Assembly: GCF_000014445.1 (NCBI RefSeq)
Contig: NC_008531.1
Location: 279,001-343,000 of the forward strand
Length of the DNA stretch: 64,000 nt
Source of the DNA: Leuconostoc mesenteroides subsp. mesenteroides ATCC 8293
Lineage (GTDB): Bacteria; Bacillota; Bacilli; Lactobacillales; Lactobacillaceae
Reading direction: 5' to 3'
Under the pieces are notes generated by a model. The model did not search any database and was not told the DNA's origin. It saw only the letters and a program-made list of their open reading frames with translations. The position numbers were made by a program, and so were the translations under genes. Below, piece after piece: positions 40,399-48,872 of the stretch (its first letter is position 1; each line of letters begins with the position of its first letter).

Positions 40399-40902
40399 CT
40401 AAAACAGTCTTAAAAACCGATCATTCCATATGTTCTCATAAAATTGCACAGTTTGTTTTGCACTCATGTAGTAATTGTCTAATGTGGTGCTAAGTCCTTT
40501 TTTCATTTGCAATTCATAGCCCAAACCGTGTGCCATTTTGATTGTGGTGTCAACATAAAACTCTGTTTGAGCACCACAAATTTCAATGCTACGAACATCG
40601 TTTTCGTTGAGTAGTTTTCTTAGTTTAGTGTGATAGAAAGAATTGGCATGTGTTTTCTGAATGAAATAATCATTTGGTTGACTATCAATTTCGGGGATGA
40701 TTTTCCAAAGGAAGCTTCCAAATATTAATTCTTCGTCGTTATGTTGGATAAAAATAATCGGTTTATGTGCATGACGATAAGCCGTAATGCGACTGTTTAT
40801 ACCAGTCACACATTCTTGAATGTTAAAAATGTCCTGCGGCTCTTTACAAACGCCATTTTGAAAATCAATAACTAGTAGTGTGTCTGATATTGGTAACATC
40901 AT
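40399..40902 (-). CDS. Isochorismatase-like cysteine hydrolase
   Basis: A 167-residue member of the isochorismatase/nicotinamidase superfamily. The catalytic triad is visible: Asp in LLVIDFQNG, Lys in YFIQKTHANSF and Cys in SIEICGAQTEFYVDTT, with the typical cis-peptide region after it. Such enzymes hydrolyse amides or enol ethers; the substrate is not predictable. AAGGA lies upstream of two adjacent ATGs, and the second (40899) has the better spacing. A minus-strand TATAAT at 40969-40964 is the likely -10. Confidence 0.85.
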   Translation of the reverse strand: MMLPISDTLLVIDFQNGVCKEPQDIFNIQECVTGINSRITAYRHAHKPIIFIQHNDEELIFGSFLWKIIPEIDSQPNDYFIQKTHANSFYHTKLRKLLNENDVRSIEICGAQTEFYVDTTIKMAHGLGYELQMKKGLSTTLDNYYMSAKQTVQFYENIWNDRFLRLF

Positions 40903-41249: not shown

Positions 41250-41427
41250 ATATCAAGTTGAGATGAATATACGAACAAATGGTGATAATTTTTAGAACTA
41301 GTAGATAGGAAGTATTGTTTTACGTTGTGCAATGTGAACAAATTTAACATAATTATTGTTTAATTGATTTATAACGTGTATGATGTATTTTAACACCTAG
41401 TTAATTTTATGATTATAATAATGTTAT

Positions 41428-41439
41428 TTAACCGGTTAA
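41428..41439 (+). promoter_or_regulatory. Palindromic operator candidate upstream of the amino-acid operon
   Basis: TTAACCGGTTAA is a perfect 12-base palindrome, flanked by GTTA and TAAC that extend it with a one-base offset. It lies 85 bases before the first gene. A possible -10 is TATAAT at 41486-41491. No regulator gene is adjacent. Confidence 0.45.
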
Positions 41440-41523: not shown

Positions 41524-42270
41524 ATGAATAATTTTTTTCAACCACACCTTATATGGGAATATTTGCCTGATGTATTGTCAGCATTACCGACAACGCTGTT
41601 GCTTACTCTAGTATCAACAATCATTGGCGTAATCGTCGGCGCAGGTATTGCGTTTGTCAAAATGGAAGATACACCAATCTTTAAACAAATTGCAGTAGTC
41701 TTCACTTCTTTTATTAGAGGGACACCAATTTTGATACAAATGTTTTTAGTTTATTATGGACTGCCTATGTTTCTAGGATATGTGGGCATTAACACAGATG
41801 ACGTCAGCCCATTAATCTATTTATTTATTACATATGGGTTGAATATGGCGGCTTTTCTTTCAGAAATCATTCGTGCCGCATTGGAAAGCGTGCCAGCAAG
41901 TCAACGTGAAGCGGCTTTAACTTCAGGTTACACAAAGCGTCAGATGTATTTTAAAATTATTTTCCCTCAGGCAGTAATTATTGCGGTGCCCAGTTTTGCG
42001 ACAATGGTCATTTCGTTGCTGCAAGATACATCATTGGCATTCACAATCGGTGTATTAGATGTTGTTGGTAAAGCCAAAGCATTGGGTACGGCGACATTTC
42101 ACACAGTTGAGGCTTACATTAGTGCGATGATCATATTTATTATTTTAAGTTTCATTTTAGAAAGATTCTTCCGTTGGATTGAAAAGCGCAGTAACTTTAC
42201 GTCACGCAAAACACCAATTTTGGCTAATAATCCTGTGATACCAGTGATTGAGACACCAAAAACAACTTAA
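41524..42270 (+). CDS. Amino-acid ABC transporter permease (His/Gln/cystine type), first
   Basis: A 248-residue permease of the polar amino-acid uptake family, with about five helices and the EAA loop (SQREAALTSGYTKRQMYFKIIFPQA). The region FTSFIRGTPILIQMFLVYYGLP is typical of the family. AGGAGGCG gives a strong start. First gene of an eight-gene operon that encodes two such permeases and two ATPases but one binding protein. The two-permease layout resembles cystine importers (TcyLM), but the substrate is not determined. Confidence 0.88.
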   Translation: MNNFFQPHLIWEYLPDVLSALPTTLLLTLVSTIIGVIVGAGIAFVKMEDTPIFKQIAVVFTSFIRGTPILIQMFLVYYGLPMFLGYVGINTDDVSPLIYLFITYGLNMAAFLSEIIRAALESVPASQREAALTSGYTKRQMYFKIIFPQAVIIAVPSFATMVISLLQDTSLAFTIGVLDVVGKAKALGTATFHTVEAYISAMIIFIILSFILERFFRWIEKRSNFTSRKTPILANNPVIPVIETPKTT

Positions 42271-42320
42271 TACATACACAAGATGTTGATAAATGAGAAG
42301 AGAGCTAGAGGAGTAATATT

Positions 42321-43148
42321 ATGCAGAACAAAGCAAGTCGTAGCAAGGGCCTATGGATTGGTATTATTGTAGTCGTGGTAGCAGTTATTGCGGTCGCATT
42401 ATTACACAATAACGGAAAAAGCAGTGGATCATCTTCTAAAGTACAGACAATTAAAGTTGGTTCCGGTAACGATGCTCAACCCTTTGCTTATTTAGATAAA
42501 AGTGGAAAACCAGTTGGTATGGATATTGCTTTGATCCAAGCCATCGATAAAAAGTTACCACAATATAAATTCAAGCTAACACTATCTGATTTTCCTACGT
42601 TAATCACAAACTTGAAGAGTGGTAAGACAACGATGGCTATGGAACAGATCGAACAGAATACAGAACGAAAGCAAGACTTTAAGTTTGGAAGCGTTGGCTA
42701 TACTGTCTGGGATACCTTGTTGGCTACAAAGAAATCAACCGGCGTTTTGAACTCATTTGCGGATGCAAAAGGAAAGAAGCTTTATGTTACTAATTCAACG
42801 AACCAAGCAACTCTAACAGATGCTTACCTAAAGAAAAATCCTAATGCATATTCAGTTGTACGTGGAACCTACACAATGGAGCAAGTTGCGCAAGGAATCA
42901 ATTCTAACCAGTTTAACGTTTACCCAGCTCCTAAGTATTCAATTGATTTGTTGAATCGTCAATTCAAAACGAAATTAGTCTATGGAAAAGCTGTTAACCA
43001 TTCTAACGCTTATCCAATGTTTAATAAAAAGGCTGATCCAAAATTGGTTAAGGCTGTTAACAAGGCAATGGAAGAATTGAAGAAGGATGGCACAATTAAG
43101 AAGTTGAGTAATAAGTGGTTAAAGGGCGATTATGTACCTAAGGATTAG
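42321..43148 (+). CDS. Amino-acid ABC transporter substrate-binding protein, membrane-anchored
   Basis: A 275-residue family 3 binding protein (SBP_bac_3): IKVGSGNDAQPFAYLDKSGKPVGMDIALIQAI, then LITNLKSGKTTMAMEQIEQNTERKQDFKFG and a C-terminal MEELKKDGTIKKLSNKWL. The N-terminal helix (LWIGIIVVVVAVIAVALL) has no lipobox cysteine, so it is probably held by an uncleaved helix rather than by a lipid anchor. The usual ligand Arg/Asp residues cannot be assigned confidently. It sits between the two permease genes. Confidence 0.88.
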   Translation: MQNKASRSKGLWIGIIVVVVAVIAVALLHNNGKSSGSSSKVQTIKVGSGNDAQPFAYLDKSGKPVGMDIALIQAIDKKLPQYKFKLTLSDFPTLITNLKSGKTTMAMEQIEQNTERKQDFKFGSVGYTVWDTLLATKKSTGVLNSFADAKGKKLYVTNSTNQATLTDAYLKKNPNAYSVVRGTYTMEQVAQGINSNQFNVYPAPKYSIDLLNRQFKTKLVYGKAVNHSNAYPMFNKKADPKLVKAVNKAMEELKKDGTIKKLSNKWLKGDYVPKD

Positions 43149-43160
43149 TGGAGGATTTCA

Positions 43161-43865
43161 ATGAACTTTGATATTGGATTTATATTTCAAGTGGTAGTTA
43201 AATTAATTCCATACATCCCCATCACGATTTACATGGCGTTTGTTAGCTTAATTCTTGGCGGATTATTAGGATTAGTCATCGCACTAGTACGACACTATAA
43301 AGTGCCGGTATTATCACAGTTGTTTACCATCATGATTACCATTCTTAAAGGCGTTCCCTTGATTTTAGTTTTTTTGCTTATCTTCATGGTTACTTCCCAG
43401 AATTTTAATCGTGTGGCTAAAGCACTAGGATGGCATATGCACTATGGTGATTTACCAATGAGCCTTCTAGCAATCATTGGGTTATCCTTGATGGCAATGG
43501 TTGGTCTGAGTGAGGCATTCCGAGGTGCTTTTGAGTCAGTGAAAACTGTTCAGTTTGACGCTGCACGATCACTTGGTATGACCAACTTGCAGACAATTCG
43601 TCGTGTGTTAATACCCCAAGCATTTCCAGTCGCTTTACCAATGATTATTAATATGTTGATTAACTTAATCAAAGGTACAGCAATTGCATCATTAATTTCT
43701 GTGGTTGAAATTTTCTCAACGGCAACGCAAGCCGCTAGTTCTAACTATAAATATTTTGAAGCTTACATTGCTGCGGCAATCATTTACTGGTTAATGACAA
43801 TTGTTATTGAACGAGCTGCTGTTCTATTAGAAGGACGTATGGATAAAAAGACAAGGAGGGCGTAA
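43161..43865 (+). CDS. Amino-acid ABC transporter permease, second
   Basis: A 234-residue permease with about five helices and the EAA loop ([31 protein letters not shown]). It is distinct from the permease at 41524, so the two could form a heterodimer or two separate importers. It starts 12 bases after the binding protein and is followed after 2 bases by the first ATPase, suggesting that these two are direct partners. Confidence 0.88.
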
Positions 43866-43867
43866 TA

Positions 43868-44605
43868 ATGATTGAAGTTAAGGATGTCCATAAAAGTTTC
43901 AATGATAATGAGGTCATTAAGGGCGTTAGCTTGTCTTTAAATGAGGGTGAGGTAGTGACCATTCTAGGGCCATCTGGGTCTGGAAAAACAACCTTCCTAC
44001 GTTGTTTAAATTTTTTGGAAACAGCCGATTCAGGATCAATAACGGTAAATGATGAGCAAGTTACATTTGGTCAAGCAAATGCGAATGATATTCTACAGTT
44101 GCGACGACAAATGGGGATGGTATTTCAAAACTATGCGTTGTTCTTAAACAAAACTGCAAAGCAAAACATCATGGAACCCATGGTTATTGTTCATGGATTT
44201 AGTGTTAAAGAGGCTGAAGTGCGTGCCGCTGAATTATTGGAAGCTGTCGGTTTACCAGATCATGGTGATTATTACCCAGCACAATTATCAGGTGGACAAA
44301 AACAACGTATCGGTATCGCACGAGCATTGGCAGTCCACCCAGCGGTATTACTGTTTGATGAACCAACAGCGGCATTAGACCCAGAACTTGTGGGCGAAGT
44401 GCTTAAAGTCATGAAAGGGGTTAAAGATGCCGGTGTAGCCATGATTGTAGTGACACATGAAATGCAATTTGCGTACGAAGTGAGTGACCGGGTTATTTTT
44501 ATGGCCGATGGCGTGATTGTGGAGGAAGGAACGCCGCAACAGATATTTGAAACACCGAAAGAAGAACGAACAAAAGCATTCTTAAACCGTTTTACAGTAC
44601 AATAA
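43868..44605 (+). CDS. Amino-acid ABC transporter ATPase, first
   Basis: A 245-residue ATPase with Walker [10 protein letters not shown], signature LSGGQKQR and Walker [14 protein letters not shown], and the polar-amino-acid family end ([27 protein letters not shown]). It is the likely motor for the permease just upstream. AAGGAGGGCG lies before the ATG. Confidence 0.92.
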
Positions 44606-44637
44606 GCGATTAATAATTTTAAAGGAGACTGCGTAAT

Positions 44638-45873
44638 ATGTCAGAAAAGCGTTATGAATTTGCAACACGGGTAGCAGGATTGCTCCCAAATCCTTTGCGG
44701 GAACAAGCCAAACATGTTCAAGAGGCTGATGATTATATTAAACTAACTTATGGTTATCCTAGCAATCAGGCCTTTCCTGTTGAAAAGTTGGCCAAAATTT
44801 CTGAAAAAATTTACCGTGATCACGCATTTGACTTTATGCAGTATGGTGAAACCGAAGGGATTCCGAGATTAAGAGCACAAATTAAAGAAAGATTAGCAAA
44901 ATACCAGTCTTTAGATGTTGAAAATAATGATGTTTTGATTACTTCTGGTTCGACGCAAGGAATGGATTTGGTTTTTAAAATATTTGTGAATGAAGGTGAT
45001 ATTGTTCTAACTGAAGAACAAACATTTGTTGGCGCAGTTAATGCGATTAAATCTTACGGGGGCACGGTGCAAGGGTTACCATTTGATTTCTCGGCTGGAA
45101 GTATTGATACATCAGCCTTGAAAGCCACACTTGAAGCGGACACGGAGCATAGGATTAAAGTGTTGTACTTAATCCCAACTTTTCAAAATCCGGTTGGCAC
45201 ATCAATGCCACTTGAAAAACGTCAAGAAGTATATGATATTTGTCAGGCACATGAAGTCATGATTTATGAGGATGATCCATACGGTGATTTGCTGTATGCA
45301 GAAAAAACAGCCATTCCAAAAATTAAATCATTTGATCAGACGGGTAATGTCATTTACGCAGGTTCTTTTTCAAAAATATTAGCGCCAGGATCACGTTTGG
45401 GATACTTATTAGCACCAAAAGACGTATTCGATAAATTAGTTTTGATGAAACAAGTTGCCGATTCGTTTGCCAATTTATATTGGCAATATTTGGCTAGTCA
45501 GTTGATAGACGATTACGACTTTAATGAACATATTGATTACTTACGCCAGCTTTATAAGGAAAAAATGGACACAATGATTTCATCGCTAGCCCAAAAGTCT
45601 GATGATAATATGGCATTTGTTGTACCAGATGGTGGTTATTTCATATCAGTTAAACTAAATGACGATATAGAAACCGAAGCATTTTATGACGAATTGGAAC
45701 AGCGCCATATCGGTGTCATTCCAGGCAATATTATGAGTGCAGCAGGTAGCGGTTATGAGCAATACTTTAGATTGAACTTTACGTTACCCACATTATCTGA
45801 AATCAAAATTGGCATTGAAAGAATTTCTGAGGCAGCAGCGGCGGCAAAACAAACTAAGTCCCCAGTAATTTGA
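44638..45873 (+). CDS. PLP-dependent aminotransferase, class I fold
   Basis: A 411-residue aminotransferase of the LysN/MocR-catalytic-domain type, without a DNA-binding domain. The PLP lysine is K246 in GSFSKILAPGSRLGY. Other marks: LITSGSTQGMDLV (phosphate cup), PTFQNPVGTSMPLEKR, YEDDPYGDL, and the carboxylate-binding Arg in YFRLNFT. Such enzymes often act on aromatic, branched or 2-aminoadipate-type amino acids. It stands between an amino-acid importer and a 2-hydroxyacid dehydrogenase, so its product is probably a 2-oxo acid reduced by the next gene. Confidence 0.88.
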   Translation: MSEKRYEFATRVAGLLPNPLREQAKHVQEADDYIKLTYGYPSNQAFPVEKLAKISEKIYRDHAFDFMQYGETEGIPRLRAQIKERLAKYQSLDVENNDVLITSGSTQGMDLVFKIFVNEGDIVLTEEQTFVGAVNAIKSYGGTVQGLPFDFSAGSIDTSALKATLEADTEHRIKVLYLIPTFQNPVGTSMPLEKRQEVYDICQAHEVMIYEDDPYGDLLYAEKTAIPKIKSFDQTGNVIYAGSFSKILAPGSRLGYLLAPKDVFDKLVLMKQVADSFANLYWQYLASQLIDDYDFNEHIDYLRQLYKEKMDTMISSLAQKSDDNMAFVVPDGGYFISVKLNDDIETEAFYDELEQRHIGVIPGNIMSAAGSGYEQYFRLNFTLPTLSEIKIGIERISEAAAAAKQTKSPVI

Positions 45874-45884
45874 GAGACGGGCAT

Positions 45885-46856
45885 ATGAAAATACTATTTT
45901 TTAACGTCTCAGCTGTAGAGAAAAATATTATCGATGAGTGGGCTGACACACAACTGATTTCTGTTAAAACGTTACCTGTTTCGATTGACTACGATAACAT
46001 TGACTTAACTCGCAATTTTGATGCTGTTATTTTTTATCCAGGAAAATCTTTTCAAACTGATGAAAAGTTATATGCTCGATTGGCAGAGAATGGTATGAAA
46101 CAAATTTCTGTCAAATCAACAGGTTATGATAATATTAATTTCGAATTTGCTGAAAAATATCACCTGACAATAACTAATGTTCCTGATTATTCGCCAGAAT
46201 CTGTATCGCATTTTACAGTGATGAGCGTGCTCATGTTGTTACGTAATTTACCGCGATATCTTGATAGCCCAGAAACGACACAGCGAAAAGAGTTTATGGG
46301 AAGAGAATTAACAGAAGTGACCGTGGGCATATATGGTGCTGGCCGATTGGGTAGTCTTGTGGCTAAGACGTTGAAATTCATGGGTGCACGGGTAATGATG
46401 AATTCTCGTAGTCTGAAGCCAGAGTTAATTGGATCAGGCATAGAATTTGTTGATTTTAAACAGTTATTAGTTGAAAGCGATGTGTTGAGCATTCACGTGC
46501 CACTAAATAAACAAACTTTCCATAAATTTGACTTTGATAATCTTAGTTTAATGAAACAAAATGCCATATTAATTAACACAGCTCGAGGTGAGATAGTTGA
46601 TACATCAGCACTGATAACGCACTTACAGCAAGGAAAATTTCAAGGTTTGGCACTTGATGCATTGGAAGATGAGGATACGAAAGGATTTGCAACAAATCCC
46701 TATTACCAGTCACTTCATAAATTTGAGAATGTATTGCTGACACCGCATATTGCGTATTTTACGAAGGCAGCTGTTCGTGATATTGCAATAACTGCATTAG
46801 AAAATGCACGTGATATTGTTATTGAAGGTAAATCAGAGAATACTGTTGTACAATAG
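45885..46856 (+). CDS. D-2-hydroxyacid dehydrogenase (D-lactate dehydrogenase family)
   Basis: A 323-residue NAD-dependent dehydrogenase. ATG 45885 (MKILFFNVSAVEKN) is taken as start. Marks: substrate region KSTGYDNINFEFA, nucleotide-binding GIYGAGRLGSLVAKTLKFMGARV, catalytic Arg in INTARGEIVD, Glu in ALDALEDE and His in LTPHIAYFT. It reduces 2-oxo acids to D-2-hydroxy acids, or the reverse. Placement inside an amino-acid import and transaminase operon argues against a housekeeping lactate role and for 2-oxo acids derived from amino acids. Confidence 0.9.
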   Translation: MKILFFNVSAVEKNIIDEWADTQLISVKTLPVSIDYDNIDLTRNFDAVIFYPGKSFQTDEKLYARLAENGMKQISVKSTGYDNINFEFAEKYHLTITNVPDYSPESVSHFTVMSVLMLLRNLPRYLDSPETTQRKEFMGRELTEVTVGIYGAGRLGSLVAKTLKFMGARVMMNSRSLKPELIGSGIEFVDFKQLLVESDVLSIHVPLNKQTFHKFDFDNLSLMKQNAILINTARGEIVDTSALITHLQQGKFQGLALDALEDEDTKGFATNPYYQSLHKFENVLLTPHIAYFTKAAVRDIAITALENARDIVIEGKSENTVVQ

Positions 46857-46866
46857 GAGGTAAGCA

Positions 46867-47640
46867 ATGAGTTTTATTGAAATTAAAGATGTACACAAGT
46901 CCTTTTACCAAAAAGAAATTTTAAAGGGTATTGATCTAACCCTGCATAAAGGTGAAGTTATTGTTATCTTGGGCCCATCAGGTTCTGGTAAAACAACTTT
47001 CTTACGCTGTTTGAATACACTTGAAAAAGCAGACAAAGGACAGATTAAGATTGATGATGTGACAAAAGATTTTACAGTAAAAGATCGTCAAAATACACGA
47101 GACCTAATTTTAAAGACAGCGATGGTTTTTCAAGGGCATGCTTTATTTGATAATATGACGGTATTGCAAAATGTTATTGAAGGTTTGATTCGTGTGAAAA
47201 AAATGGATCGCGAAGCGGCCACAAAAATTGGGTTGTCAACTTTAGACAGAGTTGGGCTATCTGACCGAGCAAATTATTATCCTGTTCAACTCTCTGGTGG
47301 GCAACAGCAGCGTGCAGGGATTGCTCGAGCAATGGCGATGCAGCCAGAACTATTATTGTTTGATGAACCAACGAGTGCTTTGGATCCTGAATTAGTAGGT
47401 GAAGTTTTATCCGCTATGAAAGAGTTGGCACAAGAAGGGCACACGATGATTGTCGTCACGCATGAAATGCAATTTGCTTATGAAGTGGCAGATCGGGTAT
47501 TATACATGGAAGGTGGCGTTGTGGTAGAGCAAGGTCCACCAGAAGAAATATTTAATGCACCAAAAGATAAGCGGACTCAACAATTTTTGGCACGACTATC
47601 GGGTAAAAATTTTGGAGAGCCAGAATTGGTAAATTCATGA
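46867..47640 (+). CDS. Amino-acid ABC transporter ATPase, second
   Basis: A 257-residue ATPase paralogous to that at 43868: Walker [10 protein letters not shown], signature LSGGQQQR, Walker [14 protein letters not shown]. It may drive the permease at 41524, giving two complete importer sets that share one binding protein. AGGAGG precedes the ATG, and the gene overlaps the MFS gene by 4 bases (ATGATG region). Confidence 0.92.
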
Positions 47641-48872
47641 TGCAGAATAATCAACAAAGTTTGGACAAAGTAAAAGGCGCAGTCAGTACTCAAAGCAGAG
47701 ATACTGATCAGCGTCTTTTTACCAAGGATTTTATCATTCTAATGATGATTAACTTCTTGGTTATGACAGCAGTTACTACTCAAATGGGTACGCTGCCACT
47801 TTATGTAACCCATTTAGGTGGTAATTCGATTATGTCGGGATTAGTTGTCGGCATCTGGGGATTGGCTGCTCTTTGTGCGCGAATTCCAGTTGGCAAGTTA
47901 CTGGACACATACGGTCGAAAAAAATTAATTTTTATTGGTTTAGCAATTTTGATGGCTGATTTTTCTATGTTGATTTTTTATAGTACAATTGCTAGTTTAA
48001 TTGTTTTAAGAGCGCTACAAGGTATTGGTAATGGTACCCAATCTACGTCGGTTGCAACTATGGTAGCTGATAAGTTACCGAAGCAAAAGTTATCAATTGG
48101 TTTGGGGTATTTTAGTATATCGCAAACTTTACCGGCCGCCATTGGTCCTGCAATAGGGTTAGTTGTTGTTGAAAATTTTGGATTTCAATCACTTTTCTAT
48201 TTTAGTTTGTCACTGATTTGTTTAGCGTTTGTTTTATCATTTTTCGTTAAGGATAATTATACTCATGTTGAAAAATCTAAGCATGTAGTAGATGAGAATA
48301 CAGGCTTTCTCGATTTAATTCGTCTAAAAAGTGTGTGGGTGCCAAGTCTAATTGTTTTTGTGGTTTGTTTCGCAAATGCTGCTGTTACGGCGTTTTTAGT
48401 CCAATTTGGTGAGCAAAAAAATTTATCAGCGACGATTGTTGGGTTTAGCTTTACTATGCAGGCGATTATTGGTGCTTTAGTTCGTGTTTGGTTTGCGAAG
48501 TTATATCTATACTTTAGGTCTTATGTGTTAGTAATAGCCGGCATATTAATGATTGCCTCAGCCTATTTTATGATTGCTTTTGGTGCAACGGTGGAATGGT
48601 TAGTTTTAGCCGGTGCTTTGAATGGATTTGGATTTGCATTGCTTATTCCGTTGATGAATGCAGTGGTTTTGAAGAATGTTTCCTCAGCACAACGTGGTCG
48701 GGCAACGGCAATTTTTTCCTCTGGTACGGATGTCGCCTATGGCTTAGGGGCGTTTATGTGGGGTGTAGTTGCCAATTTTATCGGTTTCTTTGGAATGTAT
48801 TGTCTCACGGCTACAATGGTCATTGCAACTTTGTTGTTAGTAATCGCCCATAATCGTTTGTTAAATGAATAA
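47637..48872 (+). CDS. MFS transporter, last gene of the amino-acid operon
   Basis: A 411-residue major facilitator with about twelve helices. The loop 2-3 motif A is well kept ([13 protein letters not shown]), and the family region [23 protein letters not shown] suggests a drug/proton antiporter-like or small-molecule exporter. The N-terminal 35 residues are polar. The 4-base overlap with the ATPase shows co-translation. Export of the end product of the operon is a reasonable inference. No clear terminator is seen before the tgt promoter. Confidence 0.85.

Follow-up and report, generated by a model that had tools for sequence, protein, structure and literature searches.

The closest described relatives of the operon considered here, an eight-gene unit of Leuconostoc mesenteroides subsp. 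mesenteroides ATCC 8293, are amino acid importers and hydroxy-acid pathways. TcyKLMN of Listeria and TcyJKLMN of Bacillus subtilis share with it a TcyK/YtmK-type substrate-binding protein (SBP), two permeases and, by best but sub-cut-off model matches, a TcyN-like ATPase, and TcyK binds cystine but not leucine, isoleucine, valine or methionine (PMC9239247). In lactic acid bacteria, transamination coupled to a hydroxyisocaproate dehydrogenase (HicD) performs the same chemistry, from amino acid to 2-oxo acid to 2-hydroxy acid, yielding hydroxyisocaproate and phenyllactate (passages in PMC8465840). That route uses separate enzymes, the HicD of Leuconostoc carrying the proton-donor motif LGEHGNS, and a dedicated importer or exporter is not described in the passages concerned (PMC5589888). 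The operon lies in a 64,000-nucleotide stretch (G000:C2:279001-343000 of a 2.08 Mb genome), hereafter the window, whose positions 41524-48872 hold eight close-packed plus-strand genes, all open reading frames at the coordinates of Table 1. These encode the permeases PermA and PermB of an ATP-binding cassette (ABC) importer, its SBP and ATPases ATP1 and ATP2, a pyridoxal phosphate (PLP) aminotransferase, a D-2-hydroxyacid dehydrogenase (2HADH) and a major facilitator superfamily (MFS) transporter.

A preliminary description read these genes as a dedicated unit that imports an amino acid, transaminates it, reduces the 2-oxo acid and exports the product. This proposal is strengthened by a gene order conserved beyond the genus, by the common history of the genes, by intact catalytic residues and by the pairing of importer and enzymes in close relatives. 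The architecture of import, transamination, reduction with NADPH and export is highly probable; the full reading, with cystine or cysteine as the substrate, is held tentatively, with slightly more doubt than belief.

Across the order, a dehydrogenase scoring at least 436 bits occurs in 22 of 395 genomes, the next score being 297. The window genome is the sole match at E 1e-75 in a 398-genome sample of the phylum, and a first contig scan with one protein gave no match. Of the 18 other Leuconostoc genomes searched, 8 have a dehydrogenase orthologue, as do another genome of the family and, at 40-45% identity, two from a different family; the operon neighbors are the same in all 11 loci of that search. 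An alignment of the binding protein, scanned against 84,980 species, returned 26 loci in Leuconostoc, Enterococcus, Trichococcus and three Bifidobacterium species, with no named record among them from Weissella or Oenococcus, where the preliminary description had proposed to look. The same scan also returned two metagenome-assembled genomes and a record labelled Sedimentibacter. With duplicate records left out (L050-L054, L056, L071, L106-L110), 32 loci were tabulated, and the order permA-SBP-permB-ATP1-aminotransferase-D-2-hydroxyacid dehydrogenase-ATP2 is found in 31 (in L045, permA lies beyond the contig end). L075 holds the first four genes only, and an MFS gene comes next after the seven-gene block in 29 of 31 loci. 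Because each locus was retrieved through a match to either the dehydrogenase or the binding protein, only the other genes count as independent evidence. The shared order exceeds chance, recurring in three named Lactobacillales families and in Bifidobacterium. By their sequence distances the eight genes have one common history, because pairwise correlations over the 28 gene pairs range from 0.86 to 0.97, values inflated by the relatedness of the loci.

Among 301 Lactobacillaceae genomes (two sets drawn by one rule and treated as one), the dehydrogenase occurs in 7 at E 1e-100, representing 2 of 40 genera, and an operon-type binding protein (at least 486 bits) occurs in those same 7. Weaker binding proteins, of at most 202 bits, are found in 22 further genomes of the family, five of which were inspected and three (L164, L165 and L166) tested for neighbors. 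Close relatives that keep the operon-type binding protein and lack the dehydrogenase, a pattern of the kind that the preliminary description named as evidence against a dedicated unit, were not seen in these 301 genomes.

In both halves of the ATPase tree, the Bifidobacterium rows fall within the group formed by Enterococcus and Trichococcus, which suggests transfer between phyla. Within Leuconostoc the operon seems to have moved along with its own promoter, since tgt adjoins it only in G000 (the window genome) and G016 among the 11 loci, yet about 200 upstream bases are conserved in the genus. At 0.38 for the operon and 0.375 for the window, base composition does not point to a recent arrival in Leuconostoc. 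Several records have peculiarities of their own. The operon and suf genes of L061, labelled Sedimentibacter sp. SX930, are near-identical to those of Trichococcus, with short tree branches, and the operon region is probably Trichococcus DNA in a Sedimentibacter-labelled record. Reading frames are split in the binding protein of L041 (an L. inhae contig), in ATP2 and MFS of L044 (L. fallax KCTC 3537) and in MFS of L047, reflecting sequencing error or decay; the protein database has a full-length L. fallax binding protein.

For the dehydrogenase, proteins P0001-P0097 (at least 337 bits, some partial) were treated as orthologues and P0098 onward (at most 298 bits) as outgroup, a dividing line of our own choice. 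The catalytic Arg, Glu and His are retained in 97, 96 and 96 of the 97 orthologues, respectively, with a gap in one. A conserved Asp gives the D-lactate dehydrogenase (LDHD) subfamily its preference for NADH (passages in PMC6303947). This Asp is absent from 95 of the 97 orthologues, whereas 20 of 23 outgroup proteins have it, and in the window copy the loop after strand B reads SRSLK, an NADPH fingerprint of the form [ST]R[ST]x[RK]. Because the Asp is missing and the window copy carries this fingerprint, the expected reductant would be NADPH, not the NADH named in the preliminary description; outside Leuconostoc, the predicted NADPH preference rests on the missing Asp. The fold is LDHD-like despite the GHRA-type fingerprint, and for this reason the enzyme is not filed as GHRA.

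Phenyllactate or hydroxyisocaproate, the examples first given, gains no support as the probable product. Conversion of an aromatic or branched-chain amino acid into an exported D-2-hydroxy acid (phenyllactate, hydroxyphenyllactate, indolelactate or hydroxyisocaproate), as an electron sink or antifungal and with NADPH in place of NADH, is unlikely. The published Leuconostoc HicD comes from a different protein family (passages in PMC5589888), and its LGEHGNS is not in the operon dehydrogenase sequence, where Tyr or Phe at position 51 replaces Leu51. The transporter relatives are sulfur-compound systems, and TcyK leaves Leu, Ile, Val and Met unbound (PMC9239247).

ATP1 (21 rows) and ATP2 (20 rows) form two clades in a quick tree of 41 rows (SH-aLRT 99) and the permeases are distinct at 27-30% identity, which makes a fully heteromeric importer probable, with two permeases and two ATPases. 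The SBP has an N-terminal hydrophobic stretch without a lipobox Cys, modeled as a helix at residues 13-26 with low confidence. Its nearest solved relatives, by sequence and by fold, are sulfur-compound binders, and it is of the TcyK/YtmK type, which supplies its top two solved relatives by sequence and, with 4gvo, the first by fold. On this ground a sulfur amino acid is preferred as the substrate, an option that the preliminary description had ranked second and that fits the transporter better. The binding cleft has Pro204 where AncQR has an acidic residue. This absence, together with a hydride acceptor that could be NADP+, would also suit operation in reverse, in which a 2-hydroxy or 2-oxo acid is imported, oxidized and aminated to an amino acid while the MFS protein serves as a relief valve. 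Such a reversal is very improbable: Lmo2349 and YtmK also lack the acidic residue, yet TcyK binds cystine (PMC9239247); reductase activity is typical of most 2HADH subfamilies (passages in PMC6303947); and the MFS protein is of the efflux type.

A sulfur substrate would also be expected if the system scavenged cystine, glutathione or a thioether to support growth, with the enzymes and MFS protein clearing a by-product or the organic part left over from an S-substituted cysteine (a methylthio- or another conjugate). The SBP has GshT relatives by fold, TcyJKLMN of Bacillus also imports the mixed disulfide cysteinopantetheine (passages in PMC11487621), and the next-nearest family members adjoin genes resembling those for conjugate salvage (GST, GNAT, M20). 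Scavenging is quite unlikely even so, as the operon has no lyase, deacetylase or reductase gene by Pfam and the bulky residue 51 speaks against S-substituted oxo acids. Among the weaker importers themselves, the nearest (G984, L164:6104-10703) is a TcyK-like permease-SBP-permease-ATPase set, enzyme-free and followed by a LanC-like protein (PF05147). In L165 and L166, TcyK-like importers lie beside GST-domain, GNAT, M20 amidohydrolase and cystathionine/O-acetylhomoserine-type genes, in what looks like a sulfur-conjugate salvage cluster of lactobacilli.

The aminotransferase groups with 1x0m, PH0207, LysN and KAT II. Residues K246, R378, N184, D212 and Y215 are invariant in 29 of 29 loci; we take K246 to be the PLP lysine, R378 the substrate Arg and the remaining three to be class I/II key residues. 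The group is broad in substrate and leaves the substrate question undecided. In L045, L046 and L047 another aminotransferase, only distantly related (about 30% identical), comes after the operon, accompanied by a divergent LysR-type gene.

The pathway favored here, import and conversion of a sulfur amino acid, would begin with uptake by the heteromeric importer and its TcyK-type SBP, most likely of L-cystine or L-cysteine. The aminotransferase would use 2-oxoglutarate as amino acceptor and form 3-mercaptopyruvate or a close analogue, which the NADPH-tuned dehydrogenase would reduce to 3-mercapto-D-lactate for export by the MFS protein. Overall, the cell would dispose of surplus cysteine as a thiol acid without an amino group, while recovering glutamate nitrogen, oxidizing NADPH and releasing a reduced thiol. 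Gene set, order, conservation, intact catalytic residues, Asp loss and nearest relatives are read directly from sequence; from there we infer the substrate, the direction of the MFS protein, the common substrate of both enzymes and the physiological purpose. It is doubtful, if conceivable, that the whole forms a thiol shuttle, in which cystine enters through the heteromeric importer and NADPH-reduced 3-mercapto-D-lactate leaves, toxic cysteine is removed, the surroundings are reduced, and the block has moved between Lactobacillales families and into bifidobacteria. The thiol released by such a shuttle could not be re-used as an amino acid.

Several observations weigh against this sulfur pathway. 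The SBP is only 30% identical to 4gvo; YtmK, its second match by sequence, comes only 27th by fold; and the top NCBIfam model of the SBP is lysine/arginine/ornithine (85.8 bits), with cystine second (76.3), both far under cut-off. The fingerprint [ST]R[ST]x[RK] occurs in just 9 of the 97 dehydrogenase orthologues, and [STA]R[ST] in 19. The MFS gene is missing in 2 of 31 loci. The nearest characterized aminotransferases, by their molecule names, act on aromatic amino acids, aminoadipate and others, and 3 of 31 loci carry upstream a gene for 3-deoxy-D-arabino-heptulosonate 7-phosphate (DAHP) synthase, of the aromatic pathway, which points to aromatic amino acids. The suf and DAHP neighbors are each confined to one clade and each amount to about one event. 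The substrate gains no riboswitch or T-box support in the window or in L039-L049, where Rfam at the gathering cut-off gave tRNAs only; the leader has two sub-threshold, chance-like Rfam matches.

The gene content given in the preliminary description holds, Pfam placing all eight proteins above curated cut-offs (BPD_transp_1 twice, SBP_bac_3, ABC_tran twice, Aminotran_1_2, 2-Hacid_dh with 2-Hacid_dh_C, and MFS_1). Its gaps of -4 to 50 bases stand as evidence of a tight unit, but its value of -4 between aminotransferase and dehydrogenase needs a TTG start at 45870. Alignment of the dehydrogenase orthologues begins at the ATG at 45885, with Met-Lys invariant in 11 of 11, so this is probably the likelier start; with it the gaps are, in order, 50, 12, 2, 32, 11, 10 and -4 bases. 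A divergent isochorismatase-family gene lies upstream of the operon and tgt-yajC downstream. The former (window 40399-40902) is 51% identical in G016, a partial match, where the operon is 95-99% identical.

Table 1. Genes and candidate upstream elements of the operon (window positions).
Feature	Position	Strand	Basis
Conserved motif TTGTGCAATGTGAACAA, possible regulator site ahead of putative promoter	41325..41341	+	Leuconostoc upstream alignment
Putative promoter TTGTTT-17-TATGAT, TG before second hexamer	41356..41384	+	Upstream alignment
Palindrome TTAACCGGTTAA, possible operator, downstream of putative promoter	41428..41439	.	Upstream alignment
permA, ABC importer permease	41524..42270	+	PF00528; top NCBIfam model cystine permease, 138 bits (cut-off 300)
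SBP, membrane-anchored substrate-binding protein	42321..43148	+	SBP_bac_3
permB, second ABC importer permease	43161..43865	+	PF00528; top NCBIfam model cystine permease, 113 bits (cut-off 300)
ATP1, first ABC ATPase	43868..44605	+	PF00005; top NCBIfam model TcyN, 294 bits (cut-off 406); own clade
PLP aminotransferase, LysN/KAT II/ARO8-like	44638..45873	+	PF00155; nearest solved 1x0m, 3aov, 1wst
D-2-hydroxyacid dehydrogenase, D-lactate dehydrogenase fold, NADPH-type loop	45885..46856	+	Start at 45870 in the preliminary description
ATP2, second ABC ATPase	46867..47640	+	PF00005; top NCBIfam model TcyN, 308 bits (cut-off 406); own clade
MFS transporter, efflux-like	47637..48872	+	PF07690; nearest solved NorA, E 1.1e-13

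In eight aligned Leuconostoc upstream regions, the putative promoter keeps its spacing throughout (TATTAT in one); it is not among the consensus-promoter matches, which are at chance (33 found, 33.4 expected). The motif TTGTGCAATGTGAACAA is perfect in five of these regions, has one mismatch in two and is degenerate in one. It has a single perfect copy in the genome, and a regulon built on these 17 bases was rejected, near matches being about as frequent as those of the reversed control. An intergenic near copy beside a cystathionine-synthase/lyase-type gene was not seen at that place in other genomes and was not used. The palindrome TTAACCGGTTAA (perfect in six regions, one mismatch in one, degenerate in one) likewise has one perfect genomic copy and shows no enrichment, with at most one mismatch at 9 places against 19 for the reversed control. 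An Lrp/AsnC-type regulator gene follows the operon in 17 of 31 loci, none of them Leuconostoc or Bifidobacterium, and an E. casseliflavus query found no Lrp-type regulator in the window genome. In the E. casseliflavus group (L059:16046-16555, L062, L074), a second, opposite-oriented Lrp-type gene adjoins that of the operon.

No description of this operon was found in the openly licensed PubMed Central papers searched, nor any of mercaptolactate in Leuconostoc. Hydroxy acids of fermenting bacteria are usually ascribed to scattered, broad enzymes; a conserved cassette of eight genes, importer and exporter included, would turn one hydroxy-acid flux into a dedicated, selectable trait and offer a clear gene target in food Leuconostoc. 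Should the substrate be cystine, catalase-poor bacteria would have a new means to manage cysteine and set the external redox state.

The part families are all known; what sets the operon apart is how they are combined, together with a TcyK-type importer that has two ATPases and, in a dehydrogenase of LDHD fold, a loop of the NADPH type. Compared with TcyKLMN and TcyJKLMN, the operon has one binding protein, two distinct ATPases rather than one serving both permeases, and added aminotransferase, D-2-hydroxyacid dehydrogenase and MFS genes, and it has none of the snaA/ytmO/sndA-type genes of those operons (passages in PMC9239247 and PMC11487621). Its aminotransferase shares the conserved PLP lysine, N-terminal Arg and C-terminal Arg of the LysN/KAT II/ARO8 class I enzymes, whereas about half of its sequence similarity is confined to the operon clade. 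Relative to D-lactate and D-2-hydroxyisocaproate dehydrogenases, its dehydrogenase has lost the NADH-selecting Asp, shows in the window copy a GHRA-like NADPH fingerprint, and carries Lys77 for Arg and Tyr/Phe51 for Leu51. The Escherichia coli cystine/cysteine shuttle embodies the same idea of an oxidized thiol in and a reduced thiol out (PMC4383340), but here NADPH would be used and what is released would be a thiol acid that has lost its amino group.
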